Shown piece after piece: positions 4,909 through 61,962 of a DNA stretch of 64,000 nucleotides. The translations under genes were made by a program, and so were the position numbers. Numbering within the stretch: the first letter of the stretch is position 1; the number at the start of each line of letters is the position of its first letter. The notes beneath the pieces are model-generated. The model was not told the DNA's origin. It worked only from the letters and a program-made list of their open reading frames with translations, and ran no database searches. Source of the stretch: Acidimicrobiia bacterium (GTDB lineage: Bacteria; Actinomycetota; Acidimicrobiia; Acidimicrobiales; Bin134); assembly GCA_022822905.1 (NCBI GenBank), contig JAJDYE010000042.1, forward strand, positions 1 through 64,000, given 5' to 3'.

Positions 4909-6255
4909 CTATTGAGGTGCAGCCAAAAGCGTTTCTCCGGTCGGTTCCCGACTCGACCAGCTCTCATCCAGCCCGGGGGCTCGGATCACAACCGGTTCCT
5001 GGCCGGGCCGGGAGTCCAGCTCCCACAGCAGCGCGGGGCGGGCACCGTGCCAGCGCACTGCATAGGACAGCGTTCCGAACCGAGTGGGCAGACCGTAGAC
5101 CGCTAGCGACCCTCCCCTCCATGCTGGTCGGAAGCCGGGAGCCACCAGCAGATCTTCGCCGTGGTCGGCCACCAGTTCGGACCGCAGCCCTTCAGCAGGA
5201 GGTTCAGCCGCATCCAGGTGGAGACGGCGGAGGTCTTGCGCGGCCCGATCCTGGCCCGCAGCGATCAGAAGGCGTTCGACCGGCTCCACCGGCGCTGCTG
5301 CACCAATTCGGGCGGCAGCCTCAACCGCCTCGGCCACTGCCTCGACAAATCGAACAGCAGCCTCATCGTCGCCCGTCAGGTCGTGGTGGACGGTGAACGC
5401 CGTCAGCCGCTCGGTGGGCGCCTCGGTGGTCCAACGGGCGGCGATCTCATCCAGCACCACCTCGGCATCGTCGTGGTAGCCGTGATGGTCGAGCCGCACC
5501 GACAGTTCGCAAAGTTCGGCAACGTCGAGGGTCTCCATGCGGCCGGTTTGCCCCAGCCATCGGCGGCGATTGCGGTCGATGCGCCGGGCCAAGCCCTCAT
5601 CGGGCACCTCGATCCGGGTCCCCCGGTCCAGGTGGGCCTGCCAGCCCCGCACCACCGCCTCGGCGTCGGGCAGATCAGATGGCGCCGGCACTTTGCCCCG
5701 GCCCAGCGATGCGCTGACCGCCATTCGGGCGGTATGGGGCAACGGCCACACCGCGGCGGCCACGTCACGGCCCTTGCGGTCCAACCCTGTGGTGGCTCCG
5801 CCCTCAGCCTCAAGCAGAGCTTCGACTGCATCAGGTCCGACCGCGGCACCCGCGGGAGGACGATCCCAGTTCAATACCGGTTCCCCGCCGATAGAGATCT
5901 CGGTCGGACTCACCGACAGCACCGCCCCTGGAGCCTGAACAACCAGCGCAACGGCAAAAGCGGTGGCGGCCTCGTTTCCCACCTCCACGACCGCCGCGGC
6001 CGGTGCCCCACCAGCGGCGACGGCCCAAACCCGCTGCACCGCGTCTCCGTCGGGCACCTTCATGCGGGTCTCTACCACCGCACCGGCCCCCACATCGCTC
6101 TGGCGCACGGCGGCCTCCTGCGACGCCCGGTGCCAGCGGTCAGAGGCACCCACCCACCAGTCCAGCCTCCATTCCCCGAAACCGGGGCAGACCGACCCGC
6201 GGGCATCCACTTCCCCCCACCCGGGGGCACCGAGAACATCAAGAGGTTTGCTCAT
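4909..6255 (-). CDS. Conserved-looking protein of unknown function in gpsA-rnhB operon
   Basis: About 448 aa from the ATG at 6255, which overlaps the gpsA stop by one base (TGATG), so the two are translationally coupled. The first half is beta-rich and Ala/Val-rich; the second half is helical and acidic with a charged ARRIDRNRRRWLGQTGRMETLDVAELCELSVRL-type stretch (about 225-260). No signal peptide, membrane segment or catalytic motif stands out. I do not recognise the family. Linkage to gpsA and rnhB suggests a chromosomal, not mobile, gene. Confidence 0.75.
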   Translation of the reverse strand: MSKPLDVLGAPGWGEVDARGSVCPGFGEWRLDWWVGASDRWHRASQEAAVRQSDVGAGAVVETRMKVPDGDAVQRVWAVAAGGAPAAAVVEVGNEAATAFAVALVVQAPGAVLSVSPTEISIGGEPVLNWDRPPAGAAVGPDAVEALLEAEGGATTGLDRKGRDVAAAVWPLPHTARMAVSASLGRGKVPAPSDLPDAEAVVRGWQAHLDRGTRIEVPDEGLARRIDRNRRRWLGQTGRMETLDVAELCELSVRLDHHGYHDDAEVVLDEIAARWTTEAPTERLTAFTVHHDLTGDDEAAVRFVEAVAEAVEAAARIGAAAPVEPVERLLIAAGQDRAAQDLRRLHLDAAEPPAEGLRSELVADHGEDLLVAPGFRPAWRGGSLAVYGLPTRFGTLSYAVRWHGARPALLWELDSRPGQEPVVIRAPGLDESWSSREPTGETLLAAPQ

Positions 6256-7349
6256 CAAGAAGATCGGGTAACGAACCGCCAGAGCCGACGCAGCGGCGAC
6301 CCCTTGGAATCCGCCTTCTCCGGCCACAATCGGCGGAAACGCGACGCCCTGGTCGCCTCTGGTTCGGGACGGGTTTGGCGCCCCATCAGCACCATCGATG
6401 CCTCGGCCGCGGTCCGCGTGCCCTTGATCACCGCATGCACCTCGGTGCTGATGGGCATCTCCACGCTGTGCTCGGCGGCCAGCTCCACTACTACCCCCGC
6501 GGTGAACACCCCTTCGGCCACCTGGTCCATCTCGGCCACCACCGCTTTGGCCTTGCGGCCCAGTCCGATCTGCTCGCCCACATGGCGGTTACGACTCTGG
6601 GGACTTATGCATGTGGCCAGCAGGTCGCCCATCCCGGCCAGTCCGGCAAAGGTATCGGCCCGACCGCCCATTGCGGTGCCGAGACGGCCCATCTCTGCCA
6701 ACCCCCTGGTAATCACCGCCGCTCGGGTGTTGTCCCCCGCACCAAGGCCGTCCACCATGCCTGAGGCCAGGGCGATCACGTTCTTTAGGGTGCCGCCCAG
6801 CTCGCAGCCGATCACGTCGTCATTGGTGTAGACCCGGAAGCGCTCGGTGGTGAACACCCCTTGAAGGGCGGTGGCCACGGTGTCGTCGGCCATGGCCATC
6901 ACCGATGTGGCCGCATGTCCGGCCAGGATCTCCTTGGCCAGGTTGGGGCCGGTGAGGGTGCCCGCAGGATGGGCGGGAGCCACCTGGTTGATGATCTCGG
7001 TCATGCGTTGGCGGGTGCCCCGCTCCAGCCCTTTGGTGAGGCTCACCACCGGCACCCACGGTCGCAGATGAGGGGTCACTTTCTCCAGGACTTGTCGGAA
7101 CGCGGACGACGGAATCCCCATCACAACCACCTCGGCCTCCGCCACTGCCTGTTCCAAATCGGTGGTGGCCCGCAGATGGGGATGCAGATCGAAGCCGGGC
7201 AGATAGCGGGGATTGACGTGGCGCTCGTCCACAGCGGCGGCCGTCTTCGGATCGCGGCACCACAATACGGTGGGCTCGTTGTGCGCGGCCAAATGGGCAA
7301 CCGTGGTGCCCCACGACCCTCCGCCGACGACCGCGACCCTGTTGGACAT
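6255..7349 (-). CDS. gpsA: Glycerol-3-phosphate dehydrogenase [NAD(P)+]
   Basis: Reduces dihydroxyacetone phosphate to sn-glycerol-3-phosphate for phospholipid synthesis. The N-terminal Rossmann motif is VVGGGSWGTT (residues 7-16); a central ELGGTLKNVIALASGMVDGLG carries the catalytic Lys; RNRHVGEQIG is typical of GpsA. The start is ATG 7349 (ATG 7355 also possible). The frame runs further upstream to 7559, but that part is Arg/Ser-rich and overlaps cofC. The C-terminus carries about 30 extra basic residues beyond the usual 330-340 aa. Confidence 0.95.
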   Translation of the reverse strand: MSNRVAVVGGGSWGTTVAHLAAHNEPTVLWCRDPKTAAAVDERHVNPRYLPGFDLHPHLRATTDLEQAVAEAEVVVMGIPSSAFRQVLEKVTPHLRPWVPVVSLTKGLERGTRQRMTEIINQVAPAHPAGTLTGPNLAKEILAGHAATSVMAMADDTVATALQGVFTTERFRVYTNDDVIGCELGGTLKNVIALASGMVDGLGAGDNTRAAVITRGLAEMGRLGTAMGGRADTFAGLAGMGDLLATCISPQSRNRHVGEQIGLGRKAKAVVAEMDQVAEGVFTAGVVVELAAEHSVEMPISTEVHAVIKGTRTAAEASMVLMGRQTRPEPEATRASRFRRLWPEKADSKGSPLRRLWRFVTRSS

Positions 7350-56772: not shown

Positions 56773-57468
56773 CTACGAGACACTCGTTGAAGGCTCATTC
56801 AAATAGCAAGCAACCAGAGCCGACGCCACCTCGTCTTGCGCCTTCCCGAAGCCTTCTCCTGTGTCGACCACCATCGCGTCCCTCACGACGTCCCGCAGCC
56901 CTTCAACCGAGATTTGGGAGGCGATGCATCTGGCCCGATCTATCGGCTCACCCTCTGCCACCAAGACGTTGACCACAAAGTTCCGCCAGTCGACGCAGCC
57001 CAAAGCCAGATTCTCAAGATCAAACGCCTCTCGATCAGAAATATCGAACCAGTCTCCGAACACAAACAAACCCGGTTGCTGGTATGCCTCAGCAAACGAG
57101 CCCGGATTGAGTCCCAGCTCGCCAAGCCGTTCGTCGGTGAATACGGCAAATGCTCCCTCGGCCAGGCAATTGATCTCCTGTCGCTTCATGTAGGTGGTGA
57201 CCAGTTCGTCTTCCAAGACCAGCTTCGCAAACGTATCGGCCAGCTCTTGCCTATTTGACGCGGGCGGATCGCCATCTTCCCCCTGCTCACCAATGTCGGA
57301 GCCAGCGGCTTCGACAGACGATGAACCAGCAGCTTCAACCGCCTCAGTAGGTTGGACCGCGGGAGCCTGGGTTGCCGACACGGACGGTGCGCTGTCCTCG
57401 CTATCACTCGAGCAGGCCATCGCCATGAGAGCTACAAGGATTATCGGGAAGAACCAGCTTCGACGCAT
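56773..57468 (-). CDS. Lipoprotein with a Cys-containing domain of unknown function
   Basis: 231 aa. The signal peptide ends in an MAC Cys near residue 19, with a Ser/Ala/Glu-rich linker to about 75. Residues 90-225 form a domain with INCLAEGAFAVFTDERLGELG, FGDWFD, CVDWR and RCIASQIS, also found in the next gene upstream, which is 16 nt away. Three Cys suggest a disulfide outside the membrane. No enzyme motif. Confidence 0.75.
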   Translation of the reverse strand: MRRSWFFPIILVALMAMACSSDSEDSAPSVSATQAPAVQPTEAVEAAGSSSVEAAGSDIGEQGEDGDPPASNRQELADTFAKLVLEDELVTTYMKRQEINCLAEGAFAVFTDERLGELGLNPGSFAEAYQQPGLFVFGDWFDISDREAFDLENLALGCVDWRNFVVNVLVAEGEPIDRARCIASQISVEGLRDVVRDAMVVDTGEGFGKAQDEVASALVACYLNEPSTSVS

Positions 57469-57484
57469 TAGGACGGGTTCCGGG

Positions 57485-59023
57485 TCAGCCGGATTCCTCG
57501 ATTGTCACTGAATTGACGAACACCGGAGGCTCAGGACCCCCACCCAGGGGATTGTCGGGCTGGTCCACGTGGCTGGCCAGAATAGCCTCAGCCACCGCCA
57601 GGCTCGCATCATCCATCTGGCCGAACACCACGTAGGTGCCCTGGTTGTTGAGGCGGGCGGTGTTCTCGTTGACCGCGAAGAAGAACTGAGCGCTGGCGCT
57701 GTTGGGCGCCGCCGTGCGGGCCATCACGATCTGGCCCGGCTCATAGGTGAACCCCGAACCCTCATCGGGAATGGTGTATCCCGGCCCGGGATCAGAAGGA
57801 GAATTCGTGTGTGGTGCCCCGCCCTGGATAATGCCGATGCTCGGATCGGTGCGGAACAACAGCGTGTCGTCGTAATAGTGGTGCTGGGCCAGCACCGCGA
57901 AATTGTTTGCCGTGACCGGCGTATTCGCCGTGTCTAGGGCAATTCTCATCTCCCCCGCGGTGGTGTCGAATACCGCGGTGTACTGCTTGGTGGCGTCCAA
58001 GCACATGGGCTGGGGACCGTCGAAATCCAGCACCGTTGTTCCCGAACCGTCTGTGGGCGGGCAAGGACCCGACCCGAAATCGTCTGGGGGTGCGAATTCG
58101 GGAGCTTCGAATTCGGTCGTCCCCATCAGCTCCAACTCCTCAGGGGTCAAACACTGGTTCTGGATATCCAGCAGTTCTGACACCACCTCCATTAGCTCGT
58201 CCTCCTCGTCTTCGTCCGAGGCGACCAGCAGATACCTCTCGACTAGCTCGTCTGACATGTTGTCCACCACGCACTGGGCGCTTTGCTCTGAGACACCGCT
58301 GCCGTTTACAAGAGCGTTATAGATCACCGATCTCAGGTCGAGGCAGATGTCAAATAGCCGAGCCATTTCCTGACCAGCGCGCTCGCTGTCTGTCCCCAAT
58401 GTCCCCAAGGGCCTCTCAGGTGAGATCAATATGCTGCCCACCAAGGAGTTGACCGATAAATCTGACATCTCGGCAGCGAAGCAGGCCGCCATCTCAGGTG
58501 ACTCGCCATCGCCTTGGAGCCCCTCCACAAAAAGCCTCCGCCAGTCGGCGCAGGTAGCGACTTCCTCTACGACCTCGTCGATCTCATCCTGGTCTATCCC
58601 GAAGCGGTCTCCCAGCAGGAACGACCCGCTCTCGGCGTAGGCCGCTTCCAGCGATGGCCCGTCTATGCCCAATTCGACGATCCTCTCTTCGCCCAGCGTG
58701 AATGCTGCGGCGTTACCGATACAGCGCATCTGCTGATCGGTAATCGACTCGGGTGCCCCGACGTCTGACCACAGGACCCGGTAAATGGCTTCGGCTACCT
58801 CATCTGCGGTCGGTAGCGACCCCTGCCCCGGTCCGTTTTGAGCTTCCTGCGCCACAGCCGCCGCTTCTGTATGGGTGGTTTCGACTTCATCTTCGGCTGC
58901 ACCAGCTTCTGGTGACGCGATTGGGGCCTGGGACACAGTGTCGGTGTCGTTGTTGCCTGAGGAGCAGGCAGCGCCCAATAGCGCCACAAGCAGTAGGAGA
59001 CCAGATGTAATTCTCTTTTTCAC
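57485..59023 (-). CDS. Lipoprotein: Cys domain(s) fused to a cyclophilin-type peptidyl-prolyl isomerase
   Basis: 512 aa. Signal peptide with LGAAC near residue 20; the same Cys domain as the preceding entry at about 95-205 (MRCIGNAAAFTLGEERIVELG, CADWRRLF, ACFAAEMS), a second partial copy at about 225-300, and a cyclophilin domain at about 345-510 (TTAGEMRIALDTANTPVTANNF, GGAPHT, QFFFAVNE). The cyclophilin Arg near the start of the fold is FRT-like. Acts on exported proteins by inference. Confidence 0.82.
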   Translation of the reverse strand: MKKRITSGLLLLVALLGAACSSGNNDTDTVSQAPIASPEAGAAEDEVETTHTEAAAVAQEAQNGPGQGSLPTADEVAEAIYRVLWSDVGAPESITDQQMRCIGNAAAFTLGEERIVELGIDGPSLEAAYAESGSFLLGDRFGIDQDEIDEVVEEVATCADWRRLFVEGLQGDGESPEMAACFAAEMSDLSVNSLVGSILISPERPLGTLGTDSERAGQEMARLFDICLDLRSVIYNALVNGSGVSEQSAQCVVDNMSDELVERYLLVASDEDEEDELMEVVSELLDIQNQCLTPEELELMGTTEFEAPEFAPPDDFGSGPCPPTDGSGTTVLDFDGPQPMCLDATKQYTAVFDTTAGEMRIALDTANTPVTANNFAVLAQHHYYDDTLLFRTDPSIGIIQGGAPHTNSPSDPGPGYTIPDEGSGFTYEPGQIVMARTAAPNSASAQFFFAVNENTARLNNQGTYVVFGQMDDASLAVAEAILASHVDQPDNPLGGGPEPPVFVNSVTIEESG

Positions 59024-59135
59024 GGCGGGCTCTGCTTTCTGCCTGCGATGCCTTCATATATTCCGACGCCCCCAACCTATTGGAGGTTCCCTCGCAACTG
59101 AGGGCAATCAGAGTTGATCCGGCTGGTCTAAGCAG

Positions 59136-60275
59136 TCAAGCCGCCGCGCCTGTTGCCCGCAGGGCGGCTATTCGGGATGGGGAGTAACCCAGTTCGGCCA
59201 GTAACCACTCGGTGTCAGCCCCCGCCGGCTGCGACGCCATTGCGGGCTCGGAGGGGGTGCCATCGAATCGGGGTGCGGGCCGGGGCTGGTTGATGCCGTC
59301 GAACTGGAAGAACGCATCGCGGGCCATGGCTTGGGGGTGGGCCGGGGTTTGGCCCATGGTCAGTACCGGTGTAACGCAGGCGTCGGTGCCGTCGAACACA
59401 GCCACCCACTCGTCCTGGGTGCGGGTGGCGATAATCTCCCCTACTCGCTGTTTCATCTCCGGCCACCGGTCCCGGTCCATCTGGTCTGGCAAATCGTCGC
59501 GGTCGGCCAGCCCGATTCCCTCCATGAACTCGGCGTGGAACTGGGGCTCGATAGCCCCCACCGCCAGCCACTTGCCGTCGGCAGTGCCGTACACCTCGTA
59601 GAAGTAGGCCCCGGAGTCCAAGAAATTGGCCCCGTATTCGTCAGTCCAGAATCCGCTGGCGTGGGCTGCGTATAGGGGTGACAGCAGGTAGGCGGCACCG
59701 TCCACCATGGCGGCATCGACAACCTGGCCGTCGCCGCCCCTTGCCACCTCCAACAAGGCGGCCACCATGCCCAGTACCAGGAAAACCGAGCCACCCCCGA
59801 AGTCGCCGATGAGGTTGAGTGGCACCGACGGGGGCTGTCCGGTCCGCCCTATATGGGCCAGTGGACCAGCCAGGGAGATGTAGTTGATGTCGTGACCAGC
59901 CCTATCGGCCATCGGACCCGATTGCCCCCAACCGGTCATCCGTCCATAGATCAGCTTGGGATTGCGGGCCAGACACTCATCGGGGCCGACGCCGAGGCGC
60001 TCGGCCACACCGGCCCGGAAGCCTTCGAAAAGCCCGTCGGACGATTCGACCAGGCGGAGCACCGCTTCCACTCCCTCAGGCTGCTTCAGGTCGAAGGCCA
60101 CGGTGCGCTTGCCCCGCTCCATGGGACCCGACTGCGAGGCCACTGGGTTGCCCGAGCCACCCACCCGGTCGATCCGGATGACCTCGGCACCCATGTCCGA
60201 CAGCATCATGCCGGCAAACGGGGTCGGCCCGATACCGGCCAACTCGATGATGCGCATTCCCTTTAGCGGACCCAT
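59136..60275 (-). CDS. mcr: Alpha-methylacyl-CoA racemase
   Basis: 379 aa class III CoA-transferase fold. RMTGWGQSGPMADRAGHDINYISL carries catalytic H128, and NLIGDFGGG carries D158, the AMACR pair. It epimerises 2-methyl-acyl-CoA from branched side chains so that beta-oxidation can go on. Fits the sterol or isoprenoid breakdown set. Divergent from an SDR gene. Confidence 0.9.
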   Translation of the reverse strand: MGPLKGMRIIELAGIGPTPFAGMMLSDMGAEVIRIDRVGGSGNPVASQSGPMERGKRTVAFDLKQPEGVEAVLRLVESSDGLFEGFRAGVAERLGVGPDECLARNPKLIYGRMTGWGQSGPMADRAGHDINYISLAGPLAHIGRTGQPPSVPLNLIGDFGGGSVFLVLGMVAALLEVARGGDGQVVDAAMVDGAAYLLSPLYAAHASGFWTDEYGANFLDSGAYFYEVYGTADGKWLAVGAIEPQFHAEFMEGIGLADRDDLPDQMDRDRWPEMKQRVGEIIATRTQDEWVAVFDGTDACVTPVLTMGQTPAHPQAMARDAFFQFDGINQPRPAPRFDGTPSEPAMASQPAGADTEWLLAELGYSPSRIAALRATGAAA

Positions 60276-61144: not shown

Positions 61145-61193
61145 GAGCGGTACGCCACACGCCCGAATCGTGATGAAAGAGCAGCACTTCTCC

Positions 61194-61613
61194 CTAGCCT
61201 GATGGGTCAACCAGAGAGATCAAGCGGGTTTGGTGAGCCCAGTCGATGATTTGGGTGTCGGTGGTTGCCAGGGTCATGCCGGCCAGCATGGCGGTGGCCA
61301 CGATCAGCTGGTCGGCTGGGTCGCGGTGGAACCCGGAGTTCATCAAGAGAACTGACTCCACGGCCACATCGCCGTCAATGGGAACCTCTCTTAGTCCCGC
61401 CTGCAGGCGCTCTCGGCGCCACAAGGAAGGATGGCAGCCCAAGTCAATGCGCTCATGGTGGTGGAGGCGCGTGGTCTCCATGAATGTGGCGGCCGAGACG
61501 ACCACCCCGCCTTCAGGGAGCACAGTTTCAACCTCTGATTTGAAGGAACTGCTGATTCCTGGACTGTCGGCGACCAACCTCAGCAAGACGTTGGTATCCA
61601 GCAGAATGCTCAC
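61194..61613 (-). CDS. vapC: VapC-type PIN domain toxin
   Basis: 139 aa. Acidic residues D6 (LLDTNV), E46 (FMETTR), D98/D101 (DPADQLIVA) and D119 (TTDTQI) make the PIN site. ATG overlaps the antitoxin stop by 4 nt. A complete pair, separate from the island at 24-42 kb. Confidence 0.92.
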   Translation of the reverse strand: MSILLDTNVLLRLVADSPGISSSFKSEVETVLPEGGVVVSAATFMETTRLHHHERIDLGCHPSLWRRERLQAGLREVPIDGDVAVESVLLMNSGFHRDPADQLIVATAMLAGMTLATTDTQIIDWAHQTRLISLVDPSG

Positions 61614-61912
61614 ACGTGTTCCTCAGGATTGAGGAATCGCTCTGGGTGAGAGATGACTTCCCAATCTTCTAGGGGGATAGCCGGCTCGGCATCGATATCG
61701 GACAGAATCCGAAGCTGGCCCTTGCACGACCCCACCAACCTGGGCTCCTCTTGTCTGAACGGGCTGATACGCACCACAGGGCGGCGGTGTTTGGTAACCA
61801 CGATCTCCGCTCCGGTCTCCTGCACTTCATCCATTAGGCGAAGGCAGTTGGTCTTGAACTCTCCAGCGGGCACAATGCGCTCTCCTGACTGTGTTCCCCC
61901 AGGTCTATCCAT
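61610..61912 (-). CDS. Phd/YefM-type antitoxin
   Basis: 100 aa. VPAGEFKTNCLRLMDEVQETGAEIVVTKHRRPVVRI is the Phd DNA-binding fold, and the acidic tail (EDWEVISHPERFLNPEEHV) should bind the toxin. ATG or GTG choice near 61912; a Phd operator palindrome lies just upstream. Confidence 0.9.
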   Translation of the reverse strand: MDRPGGTQSGERIVPAGEFKTNCLRLMDEVQETGAEIVVTKHRRPVVRISPFRQEEPRLVGSCKGQLRILSDIDAEPAIPLEDWEVISHPERFLNPEEHV

Positions 61913-61921
61913 GTCATCATC

Positions 61922-61943
61922 ATAGCCATATTAATATGACTAT
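61922..61943. promoter_or_regulatory. Palindromic operator of the Phd/VapC pair
   Basis: 11-bp arms ATAGCCATATT and AATATGACTAT, one mismatch, no spacer, ten bases upstream of the antitoxin start. AT-rich, so it may also be the -10. Fits autorepression by Phd dimers. Confidence 0.6.
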
Positions 61944-61962
61944 GATCCAGCGATTTTAGAGA

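Follow-up and report, generated by a model that had tools for sequence, protein, structure and literature searches.

Comparison of the window (the whole 64,000-nucleotide stretch of DNA analysed, from genome G000) with related genomes revealed that the N-terminal arm of a cyclophilin lipoprotein has diverged between relatives by allele replacement. The arm is built from repeated cysteine-pair units and is followed by a cyclophilin that looks catalytically intact. We infer, with a probability of about 0.5, that the protein is a prolyl isomerase tethered to the membrane on its extracytoplasmic side and equipped with a recognition module that can be exchanged and is probably pinned by disulfides.

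The sequence-only reading had described two neighbouring lipoprotein genes, and both open reading frames are indeed present, each with a signal peptide and a lipobox-like cysteine. Gene 1 (57485-59023, minus strand) has a GTG start and encodes 512 residues comprising three Cys units, a linker and a cyclophilin, an assignment that draws on the reading frame, PF00160 and orthologues. Its signal peptide, ending in the predicted lipobox cysteine Cys20, occupies 58964-59023 on the same strand. Gene 2 (56773-57468, minus strand) encodes a 231-residue lipoprotein with two Cys units and no enzyme domain, as judged from the reading frame, a genome search and an AlphaFold2 model. The signal peptides end in LLGAAC (gene 1) and LMAMAC (gene 2), which were recognized by eye and with a regular expression as patterns only. 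The genes lie 16 bp apart on the same strand and are very likely co-transcribed; a promoter and terminator scan at the pair gave signal no better than chance level. The genes next to the pair (CoA-transferase, SDR and hydrolase) were considered as a functional clue and rejected, because by eye they look metabolic and because G004 and G016 have the pair at a different location.

A repeated cysteine-pair module

The motifs that had been noticed in both proteins, CxxxxAF..ER..ELG, GDxFxI / GDWFDI, CxDWR and C.A.(I/M)S, are present in both genes, and the extracytoplasmic parts of the two are homologous (E 1.1e-17 in a whole-genome search; E 7e-15 by pairwise BLASTP). The second partial copy suspected in the cyclophilin protein proved real and had been understated, as gene 1 carries a run of three Cys-pair units. 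The repeat unit comprises about 55-80 residues with one Cys pair and occurs three times in gene 1 and twice in gene 2, always on the minus strand. Unit 1 (58490-58735; Cys101 and Cys158; CADWR) and unit 2 (58280-58489; Cys181 and Cys227) of gene 1 were delimited by HHalign, alignment and a unit profile, and unit 3 (58115-58279; Cys251 and Cys291; CLTPEE) by Cys spacing and the unit profile. HHalign and the unit profile likewise place unit 1 (56938-57180; Cys101 and Cys158; CVDWR) and unit 2 (56797-56937; Cys181 and Cys221) of gene 2. HHalign matched unit 1 to unit 2 with a probability of 88%; HHalign alone gave no match of unit 3 to the other units, and the presumed homology of unit 3 rests on its Cys spacing and on a profile that included it. 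All five window units were scored separately by the unit profile (E 6e-15 to 8e-9), which is a consistency check because the profile was built from relatives together with the window genes and has these units among its rows. Two further cysteines of gene 1 (321 and 341) sit in a CPP..CLD linker (57995-58063, minus strand) that belongs to the cyclophilin module and is common to a tandem-cyclophilin paralogue.

Four cysteines are invariant across 17 diverse module rows in an alignment for which cysteines were not preselected. Relatives with two units show the median order C-(~48)-C-(~24)-C-(~42)-C (61 proteins), with a within-pair separation of 35-57 residues, and one, two, three or four units were counted in 6, 61, 13 and 2 of the 82 ORFs with a unit; for these spacings and counts the units were cut by requiring two cysteines, so that Cys conservation there is by construction. 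A regular expression was run on 84 family ORFs, including a few from the window's genus and some cut at locus ends, and called a lipobox-like cysteine in 73. The number of cysteines after the lipobox is even in 71 of these 73; on reading, one of the two odd exceptions is an ORF cut at a locus end and the other has its lipobox called one cysteine early. Single-unit proteins carry two cysteines. The even counts argue for one disulfide per unit, and each unit is probably pinned by a disulfide of its own.

Structure prediction, which had been proposed as a check, gave a confident all-helical module with no significant match in the PDB. The AlphaFold2 model of gene 2 (32 aligned rows) is all-helical with a mean pLDDT of 84.0 and a pTM of 0.75, and that of the gene 1 arm is likewise helical; the gene 1 model was poor over its cyclophilin, with pLDDT values mostly under 50, and this portion was left out of use. 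Foldseek against the PDB returned no module match at E≤0.001 among the 307 listed at E≤10, the best VIA-align row for the module had Z 4.9 over 77 residues (rmsd 4.5), and the best hit of a PDB sequence search had E 0.076. No known binding fold was found by fold searches with the module. Such poor matches are no proof of a new fold.

The domain had also been taken to be undescribed, with a Pfam match named as the outcome that would overturn this, and none above cut-off was found for the Cys module. No model of Pfam, NCBIfam or PHROG fits it; the best Pfam and NCBIfam rows fall below their curated cut-offs (for example, Peptidase_M17_N with 13.2 of 23.4 bits), and a literature search found nothing describing it. 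The impression that the module is special to these two genes did not survive, and its confinement to the window locus is rejected, since a profile search finds relatives across the class, many of them small lipoproteins. Of 395 class genomes sampled, 69 contain a match; a sample of 396 genomes from the phylum gave 11, including three from beyond the class; in these tallies at most about 50 first-look candidates, and often only seven, were scored per genome. Typical relatives are lipoproteins of 160-250 residues with four cysteines.

Single units are also found on other proteins. A TAP-like alpha/beta hydrolase (L259:1857-3734; unit E 3e-6; PF08386 E 2e-28) and a putative metallopeptidase-like membrane protein (L262:388-2097; unit E 8e-5; a weak DUF6782 match below cut-off) each carry one at the C terminus, and a DUF2510 protein (L260; unit E 8e-15) has one external to its membrane span. 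Attachment to several exported proteins suggests that the module is a mobile accessory of such proteins. At a further locus (L264:3-2935), arrays of many Cys-pair units are found in two long ORFs that overlap and seem to be neighbouring paralogues.

The fused cyclophilin, its apparent source and its relatives

The C-terminal part of gene 1 (Pfam span residues 352-492; 57548-57970, minus strand) is a true cyclophilin by Pfam criteria, matching PF00160 with E 1.1e-22 and 81.4 bits against a cut-off of 21.7. Comparison with PDB chains identified E. coli cyclophilin 1j2a as the closest solved chain (E 1.4e-12). The Arg of the gene 1 FRTDP motif aligns with the 1j2a Arg and AQFFF aligns with 1j2a SQFF; the Arg and QFF, which are catalytic positions of cyclophilins, are kept in 15 aligned fused orthologues, and the enzyme looks catalytically intact by this comparison.

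The same genome encodes a tandem cyclophilin (G000:C16:209720-210898; L060) that has a second cyclophilin where gene 1 has the Cys module. The fused cyclophilin together with the CPP..CLD linker is 91.7% identical to the second domain of this paralogue, which is the apparent source of the fused enzyme. In G001, the fused and tandem copies share 98.4% identity and group together in the tree (100/99), which points to gene conversion.

Among the 22 genomes of the genus, including that of the window, 16 have a fused gene 1, four (G011, G015, G018 and G020) have gene 1 without the cyclophilin, and two have no gene 1 match; in the latter, G010 (84% complete) and G017 (68% complete), no match to the gene 1 Cys module was found and they were counted as misses. 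No cyclophilin fusion was seen outside the genus in module searches of 395 class genomes, as judged by frame lengths and a non-exhaustive reading of fetched loci. The three unfused copies included in the module tree nest among fused ones, so these members have probably lost their enzyme or had it exchanged. The cyclophilin was considered as the ancestral partner of the module and rejected, because the fusion is confined to the genus in these data and unfused copies nest among fused ones.

Other arrangements are found in the genus. G001 and G004 have, where gene 2 would be, a different sort of Cys lipoprotein with one unit (L061:6864-7328 and L062 about 6000-6466), and G008 has a third arrangement at the same place, one unit plus a cyclophilin. 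Near the G004 locus, two ORFs (L062:8184-11003) are candidate CRISPR-Cas Csb1/Csb2 proteins, judged by resemblance.

Cyclophilins preceded by a helical N-terminal domain include Anabaena CypA (7a73) and plant CYP38 (3rfy). The 7a73 chain aligns with the module at Z 3.7 over 67 residues (rmsd 4.6), within the range of unrelated helical rows, and 3rfy was matched through its cyclophilin sequence only. Streptococcal SlrA and PpiA and Lactococcus PpiA are reportedly surface cyclophilin lipoproteins. Gene 1 likewise combines a lipobox and a cyclophilin in one chain and is predicted to share with them a membrane-tethered extracytoplasmic cyclophilin. SlrA reportedly speeds the folding of a secreted protein, and SlrA and PpiA have short insertions inside the cyclophilin, whereas gene 1 has an N-terminal module of repeated helical Cys-pair units (PMC11853100). 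The AquaCyps of marine Alphaproteobacteria add a large extra domain to the cyclophilin and have a conserved disulfide; the additional domain and the Cys pairs are points of resemblance to gene 1 (PMC4898713). Their NIC domain is mixed alpha/beta and formed from both termini and an insertion, whereas the gene 1 module is all-alpha in models, N-terminal and also found alone (PMC4898713). As far as these descriptions show, SlrA, PpiA and the AquaCyps lack the module of gene 1.

Allele replacement at the gene 1 arm

The window is collinear with G003 from 16949 to 64000 (47 kb) at 93-96% identity, and only two stretches of more than 300 bp, 58165-59180 and 61167-61960, cannot be aligned. The first of these (edges approximate) spans the signal peptide and the rest of the N-terminal region of gene 1 and takes in the end of the CoA-transferase gene upstream; it is the only homologous yet unalignable block in the 47-kb span, representing diverged alleles between genomes that are otherwise about 95% identical. 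Over the aligned gene 1 arm the G000 and G003 proteins are 36% identical; gene 2 is 97% identical, the cyclophilin DNA about 90-95%, and the cyclophilin, gene 2 and flanks together range over 90-98%. The same pattern of a diverged arm is seen against G019, G014, G007, G011 and G018, the last two of which have no cyclophilin, while G005 and G021 carry the arm allele of the window. The second stretch covers the minus-strand ORFs 61194-61613 and 61610-61912, a putative PIN-domain toxin and antitoxin by eye, in place of which G003 has about 935 other bases.

Between G000 and G003, dS is 1.44 for the module, 0.21 for the cyclophilin and 0.07 for gene 2. Synonymous divergence is thus high in the module only and low in the cyclophilin and gene 2, which indicates that the block was imported and not locally accelerated. 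A tree of the flank proteins (hydrolase, gene 2 and SDR; 14 genomes), which leaves out G001 because its weak match to gene 2 (27%) is not gene 2, rejects monophyly of the three genomes with allele A (p-AU 7.3e-7), and the module tree splits A from B with support of 100/100 and rejects the flank clade (p-AU 4.2e-7); the groups for both AU tests were picked after the trees had been seen. Within allele types, the module has a dN/dS of 0.16-0.37, the cyclophilin one of 0.07-0.17 and gene 2 one of 0.04-0.15. The module is less constrained than the cyclophilin and gene 2 in all comparable pairs except G003/G019, where it is similar to gene 2. Its dN/dS, 0.16-0.40 in all, gives no hint of positive selection among sequences of one allele type. 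Rapid positive selection was rejected as an explanation of the arm divergence, since dS rises along with dN and dN/dS stays below 1. The inclusion of the signal peptide and the CoA-transferase end in the block means that the arm was not swapped alone. An allele exchange of this kind can be a neutral event.

Possible roles in recognition, folding or surface contact

A mechanism is proposed in which gene 1 would be a lipoprotein anchored to the cytoplasmic membrane and facing outward, with an N-terminal arm of three tandem alpha-helical units, each probably closed by its own disulfide, and a C-terminal cyclophilin that would be a competent prolyl isomerase copied from the tandem cyclophilin elsewhere in the genome. 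The arm would bind a client or other partner outside the cytoplasm, and the cyclophilin would isomerize prolyl bonds of the held protein or of one nearby; gene 2 may provide an arm of the same kind without the enzyme. The partner is probably variable, because the arm has been exchanged by recombination and the cyclophilin, gene 2 and flanks have not; candidates are the surface of a phage, a host or a competitor, and an exported client that itself varies. Arm and enzyme do not have to act jointly, since four genomes of the genus have the arm and no cyclophilin. The sequence-only reading had suggested a folding or sensing device. Its folding half is plausible in view of the seemingly intact cyclophilin, and the allele swapping of the module, which that reading had not foreseen and which narrows the possible functions most, points to partner recognition over generic folding.

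The main rival is a plain extracytoplasmic foldase, in which the module would be a stalk or a general client-holding domain, comparable to the PrsA foldase domain, and the swap would reflect neutral hitch-hiking at a recombination-prone site. The purifying selection on the module (dN/dS 0.16-0.40) is compatible with this, and the folding of secreted proteins by cyclophilin lipoproteins is already known (PMC11853100). However, the module is far commoner without a cyclophilin, as its presence in 69 of 395 class genomes illustrates, four genomes of the genus lack the fusion, and in 47 kb the module is the sole homologous block too diverged to align with G003; we regard this explanation as possible but somewhat unlikely. 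The strict pairing of cysteines in each unit could instead reflect a redox or environmental sensor, where the pairs switch and the cyclophilin transmits their state. This seems highly improbable, as there is no CxxC or other redox-active motif, the paired cysteines of two-unit proteins are 35-57 residues apart, structural disulfides fit the pattern better and no regulator adjoins the gene pair.

A surface adhesin, or a lipoprotein for phage or host contact that carries the cyclophilin as incidental cargo, would account for the swapping of the extracytoplasmic part and for the loss of the enzyme in some members. It would also suit the sponge origin that record titles and isolate names suggest for genomes of the genus. 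Incidental cargo is hard to reconcile with the strong constraint on the cyclophilin where it is present (dN/dS 0.07-0.17) and with its conserved active-site Arg and QFF, and this alternative appears improbable. We favor the tethered prolyl isomerase with an exchangeable recognition module. In its boldest form, offered tentatively and considered unlikely as a whole, the module would be a hitherto unnamed recognition module of actinobacterial lipoproteins, helical, pinned by disulfides and present throughout the class, and sponge-associated species would trade the arm between strains by homologous recombination while keeping the cyclophilin and anchor, giving an exchangeable-arm surface chaperone shaped by recognition of phage, host or competitor.

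The module is an uncatalogued extracytoplasmic domain that occurs in a largely uncultured actinobacterial class and is attached to several exported enzymes, and naming it would provide an annotation for many 'hypothetical lipoproteins'. Arm-swap variants occur naturally as types A, B and C, with and without the enzyme. That the swap affects one fixed site in genomes that are otherwise nearly identical yields a testable claim about which surface feature of sponge symbionts is pressed to change.
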